The position numbers and the translations under genes are program-made. Positions 1,395-54,483 of a stretch of DNA of 64,000 nt are shown here, piece by piece. Where the stretch lies: NCBI GenBank assembly GCA_022509085.1, contig JAFLTW010000003.1, positions 1 to 64,000 on the forward strand, in the 5' to 3' direction. Numbering within the stretch: position 1 is the stretch's first letter; every line of letters begins with the position of its first letter. The stretch is from Muribaculaceae bacterium. Lineage in GTDB: Bacteria > Bacteroidota > Bacteroidia > Bacteroidales > Muribaculaceae. The notes below the pieces were generated by a model. The model saw nothing but the letters and a program-made list of their open reading frames with translations, was not told the DNA's origin and ran no database searches.

Positions 1395-2675
1395 ATGAAT
1401 AATTTTAACAAGAATTCTTTATCTAATTATAAAAAAAGGATGAATGAAAATCGGCGAAATGTTAAATTTAATAACGAAAATATTATTTTCTATAAATTGA
1501 ACCATCCCAAGGTAGTTTCTGATTTTATTCGTGGAATGAAAACCGCCATAAAGTATGGATTCAAAAAATTTAACGTCGACTTTTCTTATGTAGATGTACA
1601 AGTGTTTCCTAATGTAGTTGTACCTTTAAGTGCTTTATTTGAATATTATGAATCACAAGGTTATGAATTTATCTATAAAAAAATGCCTCGATTCTTTGAA
1701 GGCATGAATTTTCCCACCCCCCAAAAGTATAAGGGGAAGGGTGGTATACTAAATAAAGTATGGGAGTTTTCTTCAGAAGACATAGGGGCGGTTGTAGATG
1801 CGTTTATTGAAGAAATTGGACGATGTGACACTTATCCCAAAGGATTTCTCACTGCCACAGAATGGGCCTTGACTGAAGTAATGGATAATGTAATACAACA
1901 CTCTAATTCACCAAATGGATTTGTAATGGGGCAAGTTCACCCCACAACAAAACATGTTGCAATCACTGTTTTTGATATGGGGTGTGGTATATTTAATTCA
2001 TTTAAAAATTCAAATCATCATCCTCGAAATGCAGTTGATGCTATAACTCTTGCTCTTCAGGAATCGATAACCAGAGATAAATCTATAGGACAAGGTAACG
2101 GATTATTCGGTTTATCATCTTTAATAAAACAAGGAGATAGTCGACTTAAAATAACTTCTGGGAGAGGGTACTATTCCTATACTTATGGTAACTCTATTAC
2201 TTATGAGAATTGCCCAGTTATTTCTAATGAAATTAATATGACAACTGTGGATTTCATGTTAGATTATTCCACAGCTGTCTCTTTTGAAAAAGCTTTAGTT
2301 TTCAATGGGTCTATCTATACTCCTATTACACTTAGGATTGAGAATATGGAAGATATTGATGGGAATATTTACATTAATATTAGAAAAGAGTCTAATGGCA
2401 CAGGAACCCGTCAAGCAGCCTCTCAGATTAAGAATAAAATATTCAATATTTTAAAAGAAGAACCGAAAATTATAATTTTAGATTTTACTGGCATCTCAGT
2501 AATTAGTTCCTCTTATGCAGATGAGCTATTGGCCAAATTGTTCAGCTCTCTAGGTCTTTTTCAATTTAATAGAGTCATAAAAATGATTGGACTAACGGAT
2601 GAACAACAACTCATACTACAAAAATCTGTTATTCAGAGAATAATAGAAGATTCTAAAACTACTTCAATTACTTAA
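1395..2675 (+). CDS. GHKL-type ATPase fused to a STAS-like DUF4325 domain
   Basis: The 426-residue protein carries a histidine-kinase-like ATP-binding fold in the middle: an N box (EWALTEVMDNVIQHS) near residue 156, a G1 box (DMGCGI) near 195 and a G2 box (GQGNGLFG) near 232. No phosphoacceptor His domain is visible, so it resembles anti-sigma kinases of the SpoIIAB/RsbW type. Residues ~330-410 (DFTGISVISSSYADELLAKL) match the STAS-like DUF4325 type, related to anti-sigma antagonists. The N-terminal ~110 residues are not recognised. The gene follows RhuM-Fic by 49 bases on the same strand in AT-rich DNA. A switch role is inference. Confidence 0.75.
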   Translation: MNNFNKNSLSNYKKRMNENRRNVKFNNENIIFYKLNHPKVVSDFIRGMKTAIKYGFKKFNVDFSYVDVQVFPNVVVPLSALFEYYESQGYEFIYKKMPRFFEGMNFPTPQKYKGKGGILNKVWEFSSEDIGAVVDAFIEEIGRCDTYPKGFLTATEWALTEVMDNVIQHSNSPNGFVMGQVHPTTKHVAITVFDMGCGIFNSFKNSNHHPRNAVDAITLALQESITRDKSIGQGNGLFGLSSLIKQGDSRLKITSGRGYYSYTYGNSITYENCPVISNEINMTTVDFMLDYSTAVSFEKALVFNGSIYTPITLRIENMEDIDGNIYINIRKESNGTGTRQAASQIKNKIFNILKEEPKIIILDFTGISVISSSYADELLAKLFSSLGLFQFNRVIKMIGLTDEQQLILQKSVIQRIIEDSKTTSIT

Positions 2676-2791
2676 TGTAAGTAGACCATTTTGCGAAAAT
2701 GGGTAAAACGGAATTTTGCTGAAGTCTATTTTTTAAAGTATAGTATAGATGAGGAGGAATATTAGGATTTAATGCAAAGTAATTATAAACC

Positions 2792-2826
2792 AAATGGGTA
2801 CATGTCCAAAAGACACATACCCATTT
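2792..2826. terminator. Hairpin between convergent genes
   Basis: AAATGGGTA at 2792-2800 pairs with TACCCATTT at 2818-2826, with an inner TGTC/GACA extension. It sits between the plus-strand GHKL-STAS gene and the minus-strand small genes. There is no strong T run on either side, so terminator activity is only likely. Confidence 0.5.
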
Positions 2827-2855
2827 AGTCATTGATTGAGTTTCTGTTTTATAAG

Positions 2856-3020
2856 TTAAAACATCCCATCACAACTTGACTTTGCTACTTCTTCAACAAA
2901 TTCATCAAGAGAAAGTTTTACATTATCCCTGAATGTCCTTTCGTCCTTATGGCCTGATACAGACGTCATTTGGAGTGTGGAGTATCGAGGTGTACCGTCC
3001 GTACGTATAAAGAGGTACAT
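2856..3020 (-). CDS. Small hypothetical protein, 54 residues, coupled to its upstream gene
   Basis: On the minus strand the frame opens with ATG at 3018-3020, reads MYLFIRTDGTPRYST and ends with TAA at 2856-2858. Its ATG overlaps the TAA stop of the preceding small gene in a TAATG junction, the usual sign of translational coupling. The composition is ordinary and charged, with no membrane segment. No family is recognised. It could also be the displaced end of one gene broken by a frameshift. Confidence 0.4.
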   Translation of the reverse strand: MYLFIRTDGTPRYSTLQMTSVSGHKDERTFRDNVKLSLDEFVEEVAKSSCDGMF

Positions 3021-3214
3021 TAAGTGTAAGGTGCCCTAAAAATGTAAACTTCCCCTTCTTCAATAGTGATTATCCTCTTACTCCGTTTGAATAATCTCTT
3101 GGTATGAAGTGTGTACAACTCCATCCTTTCATCCTTGTTCACTGATTTCAACTCACCAATTAACACTCTTAAATCTTCATTGTAAATCTTGTTAATCTTA
3201 TCTTTTATATTCAT
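3020..3214 (-). CDS. Small hypothetical protein, 64 residues
   Basis: A short, lysine-rich, mostly helical protein (MNIKDKINKIYNEDLRVLIG at the start) with no signal peptide. It overlaps the downstream 54-residue frame by one base at TAATG. AT-rich codon use matches the island. The family is not recognised. The pair is preceded by about 300 bases without other genes. Confidence 0.4.
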   Translation of the reverse strand: MNIKDKINKIYNEDLRVLIGELKSVNKDERMELYTLHTKRLFKRSKRIITIEEGEVYIFRAPYT

Positions 3215-3440
3215 AATTATGTACCCTTCAATTAGTGAAGGTGTACATATTAATTAAAAAAAAAATCCCCCGATTTAACAGGTGATATGTTTTTGAGTAA
3301 TTATTATTATGGATAACTATCTAAAAATCAATAAATAAAAATAAAGTGTTAAAAAGTCTCTCCAATAAAATTATAAAAATTGACATTATTGGTTCACCGA
3401 GATTATGAGTGTCTTTCGTCGTGTCGTCGTCGTATCAAAA

Positions 3441-3477
3441 TAAAAAAAGTAGGTCGGGAACAATGTCCGAACCTACT
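3441..3477 (-). terminator. Terminator of the small lipoprotein gene
   Basis: Read on the minus strand, AGTAGGT(T)CGG pairs with CCGACCTACT around a short loop and is followed by seven T residues and more T-rich sequence. It lies 43 bases after the stop codon of the lipoprotein gene at 3520. Confidence 0.75.
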
Positions 3478-3519
3478 GGTGTTTTTTCAAGATAATAAAA
3501 TGTGTTTATTAAACTAACT

Positions 3520-3903
3520 TTATTGTCTTTTATAAAGGTTGTTATTTAATCTCAAAGAATTGTTTAATATAATTGTTTCTTTAAAGATTTTTATTTCATC
3601 ATCTATATCATATTTTATAACAAGGGTGTGGAACCCATCATCCTCATTCAGGATTTCATAGGAAAAATCATATGAACTTTCTATATAAGGTCCACATCCT
3701 CTTCCGTTATTACCAAAGATATAAGTTTCCGTTCCAGAATATTCCTGACCGTCCTGATAATAACTCCATGCATAGACCCAAGTTCCAACCAGATCATCAG
3801 CAAATGTATATTTTGGAGGGTCGGGGTCGTCTTTATCACATGATGAAAATGATATAATCGAAATAAGAAGACAAGAATAAATAATAAATTTCTTAAAATC
3901 CAT
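3520..3903 (-). CDS. Small lipoprotein with a lipocalin-like opening
   Basis: The 127-residue protein starts with a lipoprotein signal (basic MDFKK, a hydrophobic stretch, then the lipobox-like SFSSC and an acidic DKDDPDPP linker). The mature part opens with DDLVGTWVYAW, as in lipocalin-like or META-like lipoproteins of Bacteroidota, and continues as beta-rich sequence. It is probably a small surface or periplasmic lipoprotein. It is monocistronic with its own terminator. No enzymatic motif is visible. Confidence 0.65.
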   Translation of the reverse strand: MDFKKFIIYSCLLISIISFSSCDKDDPDPPKYTFADDLVGTWVYAWSYYQDGQEYSGTETYIFGNNGRGCGPYIESSYDFSYEILNEDDGFHTLVIKYDIDDEIKIFKETIILNNSLRLNNNLYKRQ

Positions 3904-3980
3904 AACTTATTTAATAAATTAATTTAGTATTTTCCAAACCGTGGTCTCACCGTGGTACAAGAATTGGGATTTTGTTAAAC

Positions 3981-4069
3981 AAAAATCTCTAACTATTGAA
4001 TTTCAATCAGTTGAAGATTTTTATTGGTAGTGTCACTAGGAATCGAACCGGGGACACAAGGATTTTCAG
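3981..4069. repeat. Degenerate copy of the tRNA-Phe 3' half plus its terminator (att site)
   Basis: This 89-bp stretch matches 5165-5254 closely: the terminator dyad half, the T arm, the variable region and the anticodon stem-loop up to GATTTTCAG, where identity stops abruptly. The break falls in the anticodon loop, a common crossover point for tyrosine recombinases. The copy has small changes (one base lost in AACTATTG, a C to T in the T arm). It reads as the distal attachment site of an island inserted at tRNA-Phe. Confidence 0.8.
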
Positions 4070-4224
4070 AACTTGACGTTCTGTGCCAAACTGGCTTGTT
4101 GTAAGCGAGTTAGAAATTATGTTTATTTTTGGTTTCAATTTTATTGGAAATTCTTGATTGCAATTTGAAATAGTAATAAAAAAATTATTATAAATCCAAT
4201 GAATTTTTCCTTCAATAAGAAATC

Positions 4225-48207: not shown

Positions 48208-48429
48208 TTATTGTCGTTTTGGGGGCACGGGGTCGTAGCCGGAGCCTCCCCACGGGTGGCAGCGTAGAATGCGCTTCAGGGCGAGCCAGAGGCCGCGGGC
48301 CGGCCCGTGGATGGTGATGGCCTCTATTGCATACTGGCTGCATGTGGGGCTGTATCGGCACGCCGCGGGGAAGTGGGGGGAGATGGCGAGCTGATAGAAG
48401 CGTATGGGGAGTATCAGTAGACGTCGCAT
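48208..48429 (-). CDS. yidD: Membrane protein insertion efficiency factor YidD
   Basis: The 73-residue protein shows the complete family pattern: [15 protein letters not shown], the Cys motif [15 protein letters not shown], and [19 protein letters not shown]. It aids YidC-dependent membrane insertion. Its start lies 16 bases inside the end of rnpA, the usual arrangement. Confidence 0.96.
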
Positions 48430-48872
48430 TCAGTCTTGGGTATGGCGTCGCGGTTTTCATTCAGTTTTTCGCAGAGGCGCGCCATAAGGCGCTCGAGCTT
48501 GCGAGAGATGTCTGCGAAAGAGGCGTTCTCCTCCTTCATGTATACCAGGCCGATGCTTACGGTGCGCACGTCAGGGAGCGCAGCCACTGCCTCGAGCAGC
48601 GGAGAGCGTCCCAGCCTGAAGGCCTCGCGTATGCGACGGCGCATCAGCACCCTGTCTACGGCCTTGCGCCGCTTCTTCTTAGGCACCGACACGAGCACCT
48701 GCACGGGCCCGATGAGGTCGGGCACACGGCTTCGGAAGTTCTCCTCAAGCTCCTTCTGCGTGAGCGGGCGCCACATCATCTTGATGGGATACTCGATGAG
48801 CTTGGAGCCGTCGGAAAAGAGACGTTCCTGGAGCGACCTGTGGTGGAGGCGGGCACTCTTGGGGAGTTTCAT
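48414..48872 (-). CDS. rnpA: Ribonuclease P protein component
   Basis: The 152-residue basic protein supports the RNase P RNA in 5' maturation of tRNA. The conserved basic helix is seen in [20 protein letters not shown]. The N-terminal [17 protein letters not shown] fits the substrate-binding part. It is longer than many RnpA proteins, as is usual in Bacteroidota. Its ATG directly abuts the stop of the RNase R-glycosidase frame, and yidD overlaps its end. Confidence 0.92.
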
Positions 48873-51800
48873 TTAGTTGTCGAGGCTCGTGATTACCAGG
48901 CGGTCTACGATGGCATGGTTGGTGTTGAGGTTCATGTTGGAGTCTTCCGGGAGATACTGCAGCTCTACGGTGTGCTGCCCCGCGGGGAGGGTGAGGGAGA
49001 CGCTGTTGGAGCTGCCCCAGTCGTTCCAGTTGGCCACGCCGCGCTGCGGCATTACGAGCGTGCCGGCCTTCCGGCCGTCGACTATTATGGAGCGCACCGC
49101 TGCCTTGTTTTCGGTGTTGACCGGTCCGTTGCCGTTGGCGTAGACCACGCTGAGGGAGTAACGGCCGGCGGGGACGTCGACGGTGAATTCCACGGGTGCG
49201 GAGTTCTTGTCGGTCTCGGCGAAACCTCCTTCGGTGAAGCCCTCGAGGGGTGCCGTGGGGATGTAGCTCACCTCGGGCGAGGCGAGAGCCGTCTGCAGGG
49301 AGGCCGGCTTGACGCTATATTTGGTGCGGTTGCTGCGGGGCTCGGAGGCGAAGCCGGGAGTGCCGTCGGTGGCAACGCCTACCACCTGCCACTCGCCGGG
49401 AGCGTCGAGGGGCCACGAGGTGAGACGGGTGCGGGCCACCTCCTCACCGTTGCGCAACACGATATATTCTCCGATGTATTCAATGGGGTTCCAGCGGAGT
49501 GAGCCGTCTTCTATCCATGCCACGGGGGTAAGAGGAGCCTTGAGGTTGGCTACCCTGTTGAGCTCCATGGCGGGAATGGGTTGATTGTCCATTTTCACCA
49601 CAATCTTGGGACTGCCCCTAAGCACCTCGGCCGGAATCACGGCATCGGGGTTCATCCGCTTGCCGTTGACGGTGAGAGATGCCACGCGGCTTCCGTAGCC
49701 CTCCACTGTGATTGTGAGGGAGTTGTGGCGGTATGGGAAGTTTTCAAGGGTGCGTGTGCCGGCAAAGGCCTCGGGTACAAAAGGCGCAATGCGTAGCCCG
49801 TTTTTCTCGAAGTGGATGCCGAAAAGTATCTGCTGCGTCAGGGCGAGATTGCCCGAGAGGCTCCAGAGCATGTTGCTGGAGTTCAGTTCGGTAAATATGT
49901 CGCCGTTGTCGAGGTTGAGATTCTCCTTGTTGGTGGCAAAAAGTGCGGCCGGGCGCACAATGGAGCCGAAGCCCTCCATCACGCCGTCTTCATTCCCGGC
50001 CTTCGCCTGGGCGAGGGTCCAGTAGGAGGCCACGAAGGGCCAGAGGGCATTGTTGTGATAGTTGGGTATATCGGGTATTTGGGGGTAGAAAACCGGGGCT
50101 CCGTAGGGGGTCTGGGGGAAAGATTCGGAGAGAGCCTTCTGCCGATCGGGAGAGGCTACGTCGTAGAGGATGGCCAGGGCGCTGCCAAGGGCCTCGGCAC
50201 GGGGGTTGAGCATCAGGTTGTCGCGCCCGTAGGTATACATTCCCCAATATCCCTTTCCGGGGATGTCGAATGTCTCCTCTATGGCTTTGGAGAGCTCTTC
50301 GGAGCGACTGAAAAACTTCTGTGCTGCCTTGTCTTTACCGAGGTCCAGTGCCATCTCACCAGTTGCCTTGAGAGCCGCAGCGTAGAGCACGTTAGTGCCC
50401 ATGGCCTCGCTCTGGGCTATGTCGGCTGTCTGCATCCAGCGGGGATAACTCTGTTCGCGCCAGTCGATAAACGAGGTCTCGCCCTTTATGAGTCCGCGGG
50501 GACTGATTACGGTTTTCTCGTCTTTATCGAGGGAGTTGGCTGCAATGGGATAAACCGTCTGCAGCCACCACTTGTCGCCCGTAACCTTATACACTTCGTA
50601 TGCCGCGAGAATCCAGATCATACGATCGGTGCTTATTGGCCATGCGCCGCCGCTTCCCGTATCCTGAATAATCTGGTGTTCCGGATTCACTTTTTTAAGC
50701 AGCGACACCATTGACGCCTTCGGCTGGAGGGCAGCCATTGAGAGGATAATCGAGTAGGAGACATCGCGGGTCCAGACTCCGGCCCACTCCTTGCCGGTGC
50801 GCAGCGTGGTGTCAGGTTCCACTGCGTTTACCATCTCGTCGAGCCCCATATTGTAGACGGCCTCGAGCAGCTTGTTGGGGTCGCTGAGGCGCGGATACTT
50901 GCTGAGGTCGTTCTTGCGGATCCACACCTGGTCGATGGGAAACTGATATCCGGGGCGCCCCTTGTAGGTGGAGCGGATCTCCTCGGGGCTCACGGCCCAG
51001 GCCATAAACTCATCCTGGAATATGGTGTCGCCTCGCCATTCGTAAGCGTCTGTGGCCACGACCGTGGGTGCGGAGCCGGGGTTGCTTTGGGCGGAGGCTG
51101 AGCCGAAGAGTGAGGCGGCGCCGACGGCCAGAAGGGCTATGACGCTTTTGAAGCGGGCTCCGCGCCGGCGCGACTTCTTCTGCTCGGCCGGACGGTTGTG
51201 TTTCTTCACCTTGCGCCCCTGCGGAGGGATGCCGCGGTCGGCTACGAGCGAGAAGTCGAGCTGTTTCTTCTCAAGGTCAGTGCGCGCGACGATTACCTTC
51301 ACCTGGTCGCCCACGGTGTATTTCTTATGGGTGTTGACTCCGACAATGCAGTAGTTTTTCTCGTCGAGCTCGTAGTAGTCGTCTTCGAGGTCTCGGATGG
51401 GGACGAGTCCCTCGCAACGGTTTTCGTCGAGTTCCACGTAGAATCCCCAGCCGTTTACGCCGGAAATCATGCCGTCGAACACCTCTCCGAGATGTTGGGT
51501 CATATACTCCACCTGCTTGTAGCGTATCGAAGACATCTCGGCCTTGGCGGCGGTCACCTCCATCTCTGTGGAGTGGACACACTGCTTCTCCACCTGCTTC
51601 TCATCAGCGCTGCGCATGCCGTCGGCATAGCGCGCCAGCAGGCGGTGAACCATCATGTCGGGATAACGCCGGATGGGGGAGGTGAAGTGGGTATAGTAGG
51701 GGAGGGCGAGGCCGTAGTGGCCAATGTTGTCGACGGAATATTTTGCCTTGGCCATGCTTCTCATGGCCAGGATAGTGAGCATGTTTTCCTCGCCGCGGCC

Positions 51801-53375
51801 CTTTACGTCGCGCAGCAGCCGGTTGAGACTCTTGTTCATGTCTTTCACGGAGCCCACCGTCTTGAGCCTGAATCCGAAGTTGGAGGCGATGCGGGCCAGC
51901 CCCTCCAGTTTCTCGGGGTCCGGGTTGTCGTGCACGCGGTAGACGAAAGTCTTGGCCTTCTTGCCTTTGGGCACCTTGCCTATCTTCTCAGCCACGGTGA
52001 TGTTGGCCAGCAGCATGAACTCCTCGATGAGCTTATGTGCGTCCTGGCTCTCCTTGAAGTATATGTCGATGGGGAAACCCTTCTCGTCGATCTCAAACCT
52101 CACCTCCGTGCGGTCGAAGTCTACGGCGCCGTTTTCCATCCTTCGGCGGCGGAGCTCATGGGCAAAGCCGTTGAGCAGATGGAGCTCGCGGGCGTAGTCG
52201 CCCTTGCCGGTCTCAATCACCTGCTGGGCCTCCTCATAGGTGAAGCGGCGGTCGGAGCGTATCACGGTGCGCCCTACACGGCTGTTGATGACGTTGGCCT
52301 TGCGGTCAAGCTCGAAGATGGCGGAGAAGGTGAGTTTCTCCTCGTCGGGGCGCAGGGAGCAAATGCCGTTGCTAAGATGCTCCGGAAGCATGGGTATGGT
52401 GCGGTCGACCAGATAGACGCTTGTGGCGCGCTTGCGGGCTTCCTTGTCGATTACGGAGTTGGGCTGCACGTAGTGGGTGACGTCGGCGATGTGCACTCCC
52501 ACCTCCCAGTTGCCGTTGGCCAGCTGTCGGATGGATAGGGCGTCGTCGAAGTCTTTTGCGTCGCGGGGGTCGATGGTGAAGGTGGTGACGCCGCGGAAGT
52601 CTTCCCGGCGGGCCACCTCCTTGGGAGTGATGTCGGCCGAGATCCTGTTTGCGGCGGCCTCCACGGAGGCCGGGTATGTGTAGGGCAAGCCGAATTCAGC
52701 CAGGATGGCGTGCATCTCTGTGTTGTTTTCGCCCTTCTTGCCGAGAACGTCGATGATTTCGCCGCGGGGGTTCATCTCCTCGTCGCGCCATTCCGTGATT
52801 CGGGCCACAACCTTATCGCCCGAGCGACCGCCCTTCAGCTTCGCGCGCGGAATCACGATGTCGGCGGCAAGGTTTTTCGAGTCGGTGATTACGGAGGCGT
52901 AGTTGCGGTCAACCTTCAGTGTGCCCACAAACTGCTGGTCTTTCTTCTCCACAATCTCCACCACCCGGGCTTCAGGTTCCTGGCCGCGTGTGGCTGCCGA
53001 GATCACGACGCGCACACGGTCGCCGTCGAGGGCGTGCATTGAGTTGCGCTCGGCCACGAGGAATTCCTCGTCGTCGATTGTTACGGCGTTGCGGCCGTTC
53101 TTGCGGCGGATGAAGAGACCCTCGCCCGAGGTGCCTCGGTTGCTCTTGGCCTTATATTTTCCGAGGCTCACCTCGGTGATGTCGTCGACGGCCACCAGGG
53201 CGTCGAGCATGTTGATCACGTCGTCGCGGAAGGCCGCGTCAACGCCAATGCCGTGGGATATCTGCTTATAGTTGAATGCCTGGCGGTATTCCTTGTGCAG
53301 GAAATCCATTATTTTGTCGCGGAGCTCCGACTTCTTCAGGCGTCGCCCCGCGGTAGATGTTGCTTTCTTTGCCAT
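48873..53375 (-). CDS. RNase R fused in frame to a signal peptide and secreted six-hairpin glycosidase
   Basis: One frame of 1500 codons. Residues 1-~720 are RNase R: N-terminal winged helix and cold-shock domains, the RNB core FTIDPRDAKDFDDALSI (Asp ligands), and a C-terminal S1 domain ending QLDFSLVADRGIP, then a Lys/Arg tail. Residues ~742-765 (FKSVIALLAVGAASLFGSAS) are a signal peptide. The rest is an (alpha/alpha)6 glycosidase of MGH1/GH63-like type (GVWTRDVSYSI, GGAWPISTDRM, FIDWREQSYP), a beta linker, and a CBM6/35-like end. An in-frame GTG at 51209 after AGGGG could start the exported enzyme separately. rnpA abuts the stop. Confidence 0.85.
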   Translation of the reverse strand: MAKKATSTAGRRLKKSELRDKIMDFLHKEYRQAFNYKQISHGIGVDAAFRDDVINMLDALVAVDDITEVSLGKYKAKSNRGTSGEGLFIRRKNGRNAVTIDDEEFLVAERNSMHALDGDRVRVVISAATRGQEPEARVVEIVEKKDQQFVGTLKVDRNYASVITDSKNLAADIVIPRAKLKGGRSGDKVVARITEWRDEEMNPRGEIIDVLGKKGENNTEMHAILAEFGLPYTYPASVEAAANRISADITPKEVARREDFRGVTTFTIDPRDAKDFDDALSIRQLANGNWEVGVHIADVTHYVQPNSVIDKEARKRATSVYLVDRTIPMLPEHLSNGICSLRPDEEKLTFSAIFELDRKANVINSRVGRTVIRSDRRFTYEEAQQVIETGKGDYARELHLLNGFAHELRRRRMENGAVDFDRTEVRFEIDEKGFPIDIYFKESQDAHKLIEEFMLLANITVAEKIGKVPKGKKAKTFVYRVHDNPDPEKLEGLARIASNFGFRLKTVGSVKDMNKSLNRLLRDVKGRGEENMLTILAMRSMAKAKYSVDNIGHYGLALPYYTHFTSPIRRYPDMMVHRLLARYADGMRSADEKQVEKQCVHSTEMEVTAAKAEMSSIRYKQVEYMTQHLGEVFDGMISGVNGWGFYVELDENRCEGLVPIRDLEDDYYELDEKNYCIVGVNTHKKYTVGDQVKVIVARTDLEKKQLDFSLVADRGIPPQGRKVKKHNRPAEQKKSRRRGARFKSVIALLAVGAASLFGSASAQSNPGSAPTVVATDAYEWRGDTIFQDEFMAWAVSPEEIRSTYKGRPGYQFPIDQVWIRKNDLSKYPRLSDPNKLLEAVYNMGLDEMVNAVEPDTTLRTGKEWAGVWTRDVSYSIILSMAALQPKASMVSLLKKVNPEHQIIQDTGSGGAWPISTDRMIWILAAYEVYKVTGDKWWLQTVYPIAANSLDKDEKTVISPRGLIKGETSFIDWREQSYPRWMQTADIAQSEAMGTNVLYAAALKATGEMALDLGKDKAAQKFFSRSEELSKAIEETFDIPGKGYWGMYTYGRDNLMLNPRAEALGSALAILYDVASPDRQKALSESFPQTPYGAPVFYPQIPDIPNYHNNALWPFVASYWTLAQAKAGNEDGVMEGFGSIVRPAALFATNKENLNLDNGDIFTELNSSNMLWSLSGNLALTQQILFGIHFEKNGLRIAPFVPEAFAGTRTLENFPYRHNSLTITVEGYGSRVASLTVNGKRMNPDAVIPAEVLRGSPKIVVKMDNQPIPAMELNRVANLKAPLTPVAWIEDGSLRWNPIEYIGEYIVLRNGEEVARTRLTSWPLDAPGEWQVVGVATDGTPGFASEPRSNRTKYSVKPASLQTALASPEVSYIPTAPLEGFTEGGFAETDKNSAPVEFTVDVPAGRYSLSVVYANGNGPVNTENKAAVRSIIVDGRKAGTLVMPQRGVANWNDWGSSNSVSLTLPAGQHTVELQYLPEDSNMNLNTNHAIVDRLVITSLDN

Positions 53376-54430: not shown

Positions 54431-54483
54431 GATAAAAAAACTTAAATATCCACAAAGTTATGCAAAAAGAGGGAAATTTTTAC

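Follow-up and report, generated by a model that had tools for sequence, protein, structure and literature searches.

A complete RNase R and a predicted exported glycosidase are encoded by one uninterrupted gene in the window (the whole stretch of 64,000 nucleotides from a Muribaculaceae genome that we analyzed), and this fusion is almost certainly real. The gene (48873..53375, minus strand) is a single open reading frame of 1500 amino acids with an ATG start, a TAA stop and no internal stop codon. In the window's assembly the same frame is open in one piece (contig C23, 238,122 bases). It runs from a complete RNase R through a basic linker and a cleavable-looking signal peptide into an (alpha/alpha)6 glycosidase and a beta-rich end. 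The reading that we favor, with moderate confidence, is a two-enzyme polyprotein from which the glycosidase would be exported and clipped off, leaving RNase R in the cytosol. The fused chain probably crosses the inner membrane and is then split in two. The parts of the frame and its surroundings are as follows.

51243..53375, minus strand: RNase R half, residues 1-711, with cold-shock, RNB and S1 domains (TIGR02063; Pfam RNB, 368 bits)
51153..51242, minus strand: Lys/Arg-rich linker, residues 712-741 (alignment with 13 unfused relatives; low confidence in the model)
51207..51209, minus strand: GTG codon 723, a proposed internal start, judged not to be a start (Val also in the unfused clusters P0239-P0244)
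51090..51152, minus strand: internal signal peptide, residues 742-762 (FKSVIALLAVGAASLFGSASA), predicted cut before Q763 (core hydrophobic in 17 of 17 rows)
51051..51089, minus strand: variable spacer past the predicted cleavage site, residues 763-775 (lowest identity of the junction, 0.33)
49611..51050, minus strand: catalytic part of the glycosidase, residues 776-1255, boundary approximate (AlphaFold, Foldseek and VIA)
48876..49610, minus strand: C-terminal beta-rich part, residues 1256-1500, its end weakly CBM6-like (secondary structure of the model)
48873..48875, minus strand: TAA stop of the fused frame, directly adjoined by the ATG of the next gene (sequence)
48414..48872, minus strand: downstream neighbor, rnpA-like (a homologue follows rnr in genome G040)

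From the look of its sequence, we take the downstream neighbor (48414..48872) to be the RNase P protein gene rnpA. In the structural model the fused protein appears as two confidently modeled modules separated by a low-confidence stretch, with a short predicted helix at the core of the signal peptide. The initial annotation had read a complete RNase R, a Lys/Arg tail, a signal peptide and a glycosidase in one stop-free frame, and profiles, model and sequence all confirm this. Two of its details changed. The signal peptide, which it had placed at residues 742-765, is present, but the motif puts it at about 742-762. The end that it had called CBM-like is indeed beta-rich, but its match to CBM_6 is weak (17.8 bits, below the gathering threshold of 28.9).

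The first half is an RNase R by family, a predicted 3'-5' exoribonuclease. It scores 740.5 bits against the equivalog profile TIGR02063 (cut-off 597.85), with residues 17-711 aligned to positions 2-710 of the 711 in the model, and it matches solved RNase R relatives. The acidic RNB motif DPRDAKDFDDA, which we take to be the conserved active-site motif, sits at residue 269. Its general form, DP[RK]DAKDFDDA, is found in 15 of the 16 clusters of fused proteins described below, the exception (P0011) being without its N-terminal part. A profile search of the window's genome returned this protein as the single RNase R above the TIGR02063 cut-off; the four other matches (32.5 bits or less) cover only the S1 end of the profile. 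Stand-alone RNase R (rnr, TIGR02063) has the same full domain order, an above-cut-off score and a basic C-terminal tail, and linker residues 712-741 correspond in the alignment to the C-terminal tail of the unfused RNase Rs. The difference is that in the window a signal peptide and another enzyme follow the basic tail.

The second half was modeled with high confidence (pLDDT 90.3, pTM 0.92; AlphaFold). Its predicted fold is of the (alpha/alpha)6 type, and Foldseek and VIA matched the model to GH94, GH63, GH100, GH37 and GH116 enzymes. A GH94 phosphorylase is the best fold match, yet identity is 14-17% in the top rows. The rhamnosidase structures 3cih, 8iwd and 2okx rank under the GH94 chains in Foldseek, and the families differ little in Z. 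At the sequence level, Bac_rhamnosid6H matches residues 919-1048 with 32.6 bits in one scan and scores 34.0 bits in another (gathering threshold 24.5), the latter covering only positions 101-219 of the 339 in the profile. The sequence search of the PDB gave no significant match to the glycosidase half, with cellobiose phosphorylase chains at E values of 0.95-1. Another protein (P0019; 1105 amino acids, 12 contigs) combines this kind of glycosidase with an extra PF07745 domain at its C-terminus, presumably of the GH53 type.

To find further fused proteins, residues 600-900 were searched against candidates of 825-2625 amino acids, and the best 120 of 945 matches were examined. Among these, 16 clusters (90% identity; P0001-P0016) have both the RNase R and the glycosidase domains, and they align over 99-100% of residues 600-900, that is, through the junction. 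P0001 is the window's own cluster and includes a 98% identical fused protein on a 7,056-base contig. Over residues 600-900, P0002-P0013 are 76-83% and P0014-P0016 63-64% identical to the window's protein, on contigs of up to 146 kb; P0011 is a 1,150-residue fragment without a start. The junction was read as DNA in the window's genome and as protein sequence in the other fused rows. The initial annotation had considered that a stop codon might have been lost through sequencing or assembly. The rarity of the fusion, seen in one of 111 genomes of the genus, would suit such an artefact, but the 15 further fused clusters on other contigs, together with the 98% identical protein in the window's own cluster, exclude a lost stop as a general cause and leave this explanation with a very slight chance. 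Another fused protein, P0017 (1400 residues), couples TilS (PF01171, PF11734) with a glycosidase of the same kind and keeps a Met before the signal peptide. We considered it as an independent convergence and dropped the idea, because the best 120 of 910 matches to its junction contained no other TilS fusion; we regard P0017 as isolated, and it may stem from a read-through or an error.

Among 111 genomes of the genus (108 with a match), only the window's genome gives a match that is unbroken across both halves. It is again the only such genome in a family-wide draw of 397 genomes (392 with a match), which overlaps the genus set. Both counts refer to the matches listed, in which unbroken matches would rank first by score. 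We read the DNA of 93 other rnr loci in the genus (one per genome, from 93 of the 110 other genomes), and in all 93 there is a stop codon after the RNase R tail. Long open-frame values had suggested further fusions (in G001 and G035, for example); these were discarded, as the stop after rnr is present at every one of the 93 loci.

The separate glycosidase gene is often close by. In 44 of the 93 loci, a gene of the same protein family lies 3' of rnr on the same strand, differing from the fused gene in having a preceding stop and a start of its own. For 41 of these 44, the ATG picked by our script is at a distance of -4 to 213 nt from the stop of rnr, and for the remaining three the two genes are 822-1664 nt apart. 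Two loci carry the glycosidase on the opposite strand. In 47 loci it is absent from the fetched stretch, though 10 of these stretches do not reach far enough for a decision. Closely spaced pairs of rnr and glycosidase are common in the genus, and the fusion probably arose from such a pair.

Some individual loci differ in their spacing. In L142, L144 and L160 the start codon of the glycosidase and the stop of rnr share an ATGA overlap (-4), which suggests translational coupling in these unfused relatives. In L124 (genome G035), a 215-amino-acid ruvC-like frame and a small frame separate rnr from the glycosidase (2553-4078), and 0.8-1.7 kb lie between the two genes in L125 (G048) and L136 (G075) too. 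A homologue of rnpA follows rnr on the same strand only in genomes G000 and G040, whereas the remaining 92 stretches, a few of them perhaps too short, show none; the region of this homologue corresponds to 48872-47134 (minus strand) in the window and to L130.

Phylogenies place the fused proteins together. In a tree of RNase R (112 rows), the fused rows and the RNase R of G040 form one clade with a support of 100. In a tree of the glycosidase (66 rows), which included no unfused glycosidase known to belong to the fused clade, all 17 fused rows form one group, also with a support of 100. The fusion at first seemed near-universal in its clade; this was undone by a search with the RNase R half only, the earlier search having returned only proteins of 825-2625 amino acids. 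In the new search the 7,995 candidates sharing most words were scored and the best 120 matches examined, among which 11 unfused clusters (P0239-P0249) are 81-90% identical to the window's RNase R half. In the resulting tree (55 rows), a clade supported by 100/100 comprises 17 fused and 12 unfused rows. As G040 and P0245 are near-identical, the 12 unfused rows represent 11 different proteins. A stop and a separate ATG in relatives, which the initial annotation had set against a genuine fusion, are found in relatives of the genus outside the clade; within it fused and unfused forms are mixed.

The distribution within the clade takes seven changes of state, of which the well-supported branches force at least four. 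One fusion followed by six losses would be the simplest history, and several independent gains are possible. The junction motif R[RK]GxRF argues for one gain, as it is common to P0015, on the deepest fused branch, and to 11 of P0001-P0013 (by eye; not P0006 and P0007). All 11 unfused proteins stop within the basic tail: P0240-P0245 and P0249 end a few residues from where the fused proteins enter the signal peptide, and P0239 and P0246-P0248 end earlier. Among the unfused members of the clade, DNA is available for G040 alone. Its RNase R ends in RRRRG and a stop, rnpA begins 30 nt later, and genes like the next ones in the window follow. A glycosidase search of G040 gave no match; although the listed completeness of this genome is 88%, the sequence of the locus shows directly that the gene is missing there. 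The 30-nt gap between these two genes looks like the beginning of the signal peptide region in the window, which hints that G040 may have descended from a fused state; this likeness was noticed post hoc and is weak (73 of 5000 shuffles and 12 of 4470 33-mers of the gene were as good). The presence of unfused RNase Rs within the fused clade shows that a lineage can do without the fusion, which may be nearly neutral.

We then compared the junction across the fused clusters. Residues 742-762 end in ASA and are followed by Q763. In the 16 clusters, none of the 189 residues of the hydrophobic core is charged, versus 167 of 314 in the adjoining linker. Averaged over pairs, identity amounts to 0.46 for the linker and 0.48 for the core, falls to 0.33 for the spacer and rises to 0.78 over the glycosidase's first 101 columns. 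The core swaps letters and keeps its character, as working signal peptides do. A motif of the form [AGSV]-x-A with Q directly behind it is present in 11 of the 16 fused clusters (A-x-A in 10, G-x-A in P0015) and, by the same pattern, in 5 of the 44 unfused same-strand neighbors (Fisher p 3.3e-5, uncorrected for kinship). By eye, three of the fused clusters without the pattern have A-x-A but no Q (P0004, P0008 and P0009), and two have no A-x-A at the expected place (P0007 and P0014). The unfused L186, on the opposite strand and thus outside the 44, also has A-x-A followed by Q.

In Bacteroidetes, most predicted substrates of signal peptidase I expose a Q, with a species mean of 71% (PMC5837995). 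The junction has the features of such substrates: a basic n-region, an uncharged core, an A-x-A-like motif and Q at +1 (ASA before Q in the window). It differs in placement. The signal peptide starts 741 residues inside the frame rather than at the N-terminus, and is therefore an internal signal at best. The residue behind the cut matters only if a cut exists, so the kept Q is the best evidence for cleavage. On these sequence features, export through the internal signal appears likely, and cleavage by signal peptidase I nearly as likely. The unfused glycosidases are themselves unusual, their 5 of 44 being far under the 71% mean given in PMC5837995; by eye, the residue behind the likely cut seems to be D, E or A in many of them.

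We propose the following series of events for the polyprotein reading, in which translocation, cleavage and membrane attachment of RNase R are inferred from the sequence. The neighboring genes for rnr and an exported glycosidase would have fused in frame in this Muribaculaceae lineage, a single event being the simplest account. RNase R would fold in the cytosol while the chain emerges from the ribosome. The basic tail and the old signal peptide would then act together as an internal export signal that holds the N-terminus in the cytosol and sends the C-terminus out, so that the glycosidase would pass through the Sec translocon. Signal peptidase I would cut before Q763 and set the glycosidase free in the periplasm. 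RNase R would be left with a basic-hydrophobic C-terminal tail of about 20 residues, which, if not trimmed, would keep it attached to the inner membrane. Stable attachment of this kind is a tentative suggestion. Equally tentatively, the leftover signal peptide might serve as a C-terminal anchor and make the cell's sole RNase R a tail-anchored enzyme of the inner membrane.

A different route to a separate glycosidase would be a nested gene, with ribosomes also starting in frame, at GTG 723 or a non-standard codon, and making a distinct pre-glycosidase. The initial annotation had suggested such a start at GTG 51209 (codon 723), which has AGGGG upstream at the usual distance. However, only 7 of the 16 fused clusters have Val at 723, and so do 6 of the 11 close relatives without the fusion (P0239-P0244), which have no signal peptide and end soon after; the codon thus belongs to the RNase R tail. 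A start there would moreover give the signal peptide a basic lead of about 20 residues. Apart from GTG 723, codons 712-762 of the window contain no ATG, GTG or TTG. At column 742, the place of the natural start (xKSIIALLA), the window has TTC, and the 16 clusters have F in 12, L in three and M in one (alignment, by eye). This column looks like a decayed start codon, and Phe at the expected start in 12 of 16 makes a nested start unlikely. Clusters that would suit it are P0014, with Met at 742, and P0015 and P0016, with Met two residues later, which could still initiate inside; in the three clusters with Leu the codon could be TTG. An internal promoter was also considered and set aside. A scan of the minus strand from 54500 to 48800 with what we take to be the Bacteroidetes promoter consensus (TTTG, 17-24 nt, TANNTTTG), one mismatch allowed in all, found no site inside rnr and one at 54444, upstream of the preceding gene; the scan is a weak one, as it found no site directly before rnr either. 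Altogether, we regard a nested gene as improbable.

Two other explanations accept the single chain. In one, the hydrophobic stretch is a permanent anchor of an uncleaved bifunctional membrane protein, with RNase R inside and the glycosidase outside. The same sequence would give an identical topology, and the fusion itself would be the selected feature. At about 12-16 residues (by eye), however, the core is short to serve as an anchor, the spacer behind it is the most variable part of the junction, and 11 of the 16 clusters keep the [AGSV]-x-A motif with a Q that is relevant only if the chain is cut. We consider this arrangement unlikely. Of the membrane-tethered RNase R with a periplasmic enzyme put forward in the initial annotation, we thus retain the one chain with a predicted exported enzyme, but not the permanent tether, which the kept signal peptidase I motif speaks against. 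In the other explanation, the fusion is a near-neutral read-through heading to loss, which brings no benefit, exports the glycosidase poorly and is repeatedly shed. The seven changes in the clade, read as one gain and six losses, would agree with this, as would G040, where the glycosidase is gone and a stop stands right at the junction. Against it, the glycosidase is strongly conserved (0.78 over its first 101 columns) and the character of the signal peptide is kept across the whole clade, and we judge it slightly less probable still than the nested gene.

If the polyprotein reading is true, one gene supplies products to two compartments, and the fused and unfused sister species would form a natural experiment on RNase R at the membrane. 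If RNase R is moreover tail-anchored, RNA and ribosome turnover would take place at the membrane in some species of the genus and not in their sisters. Signal peptide predictors limited to N-termini would miss exported enzymes of this kind.

Both halves are known kinds of proteins, and the unusual part is the joint. In the accessible parts of the open-licence literature, we found neither a report of an RNase R-glycosidase fusion nor a bacterial precedent in which a cleavable internal signal peptide links a large cytosolic enzyme to an exported one. It is well established that bacterial proteins can have a cytosolic domain at the N-terminus, ahead of one membrane crossing. The nearest case is FbcH of Bradyrhizobium japonicum, the cytochrome bc1 preprotein, a single gene product that signal peptidase I reportedly splits at an internal signal sequence. 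As proposed here, one gene gives two mature proteins; the difference is that both products of FbcH belong to one membrane complex, whereas an RNase and a presumed periplasmic glycosidase have no known link. As for an RNA-degrading enzyme at the membrane, the comparison is with RNase Y, a different enzyme that is unrelated to RNase R and has its own N-terminal anchor. RNase Y of Bacillus subtilis is reported to be membrane-anchored (PMC11313650, PMC7029143); the likeness lies in an RNA-degrading enzyme located at the inner membrane, an attachment that for this RNase R is only predicted.
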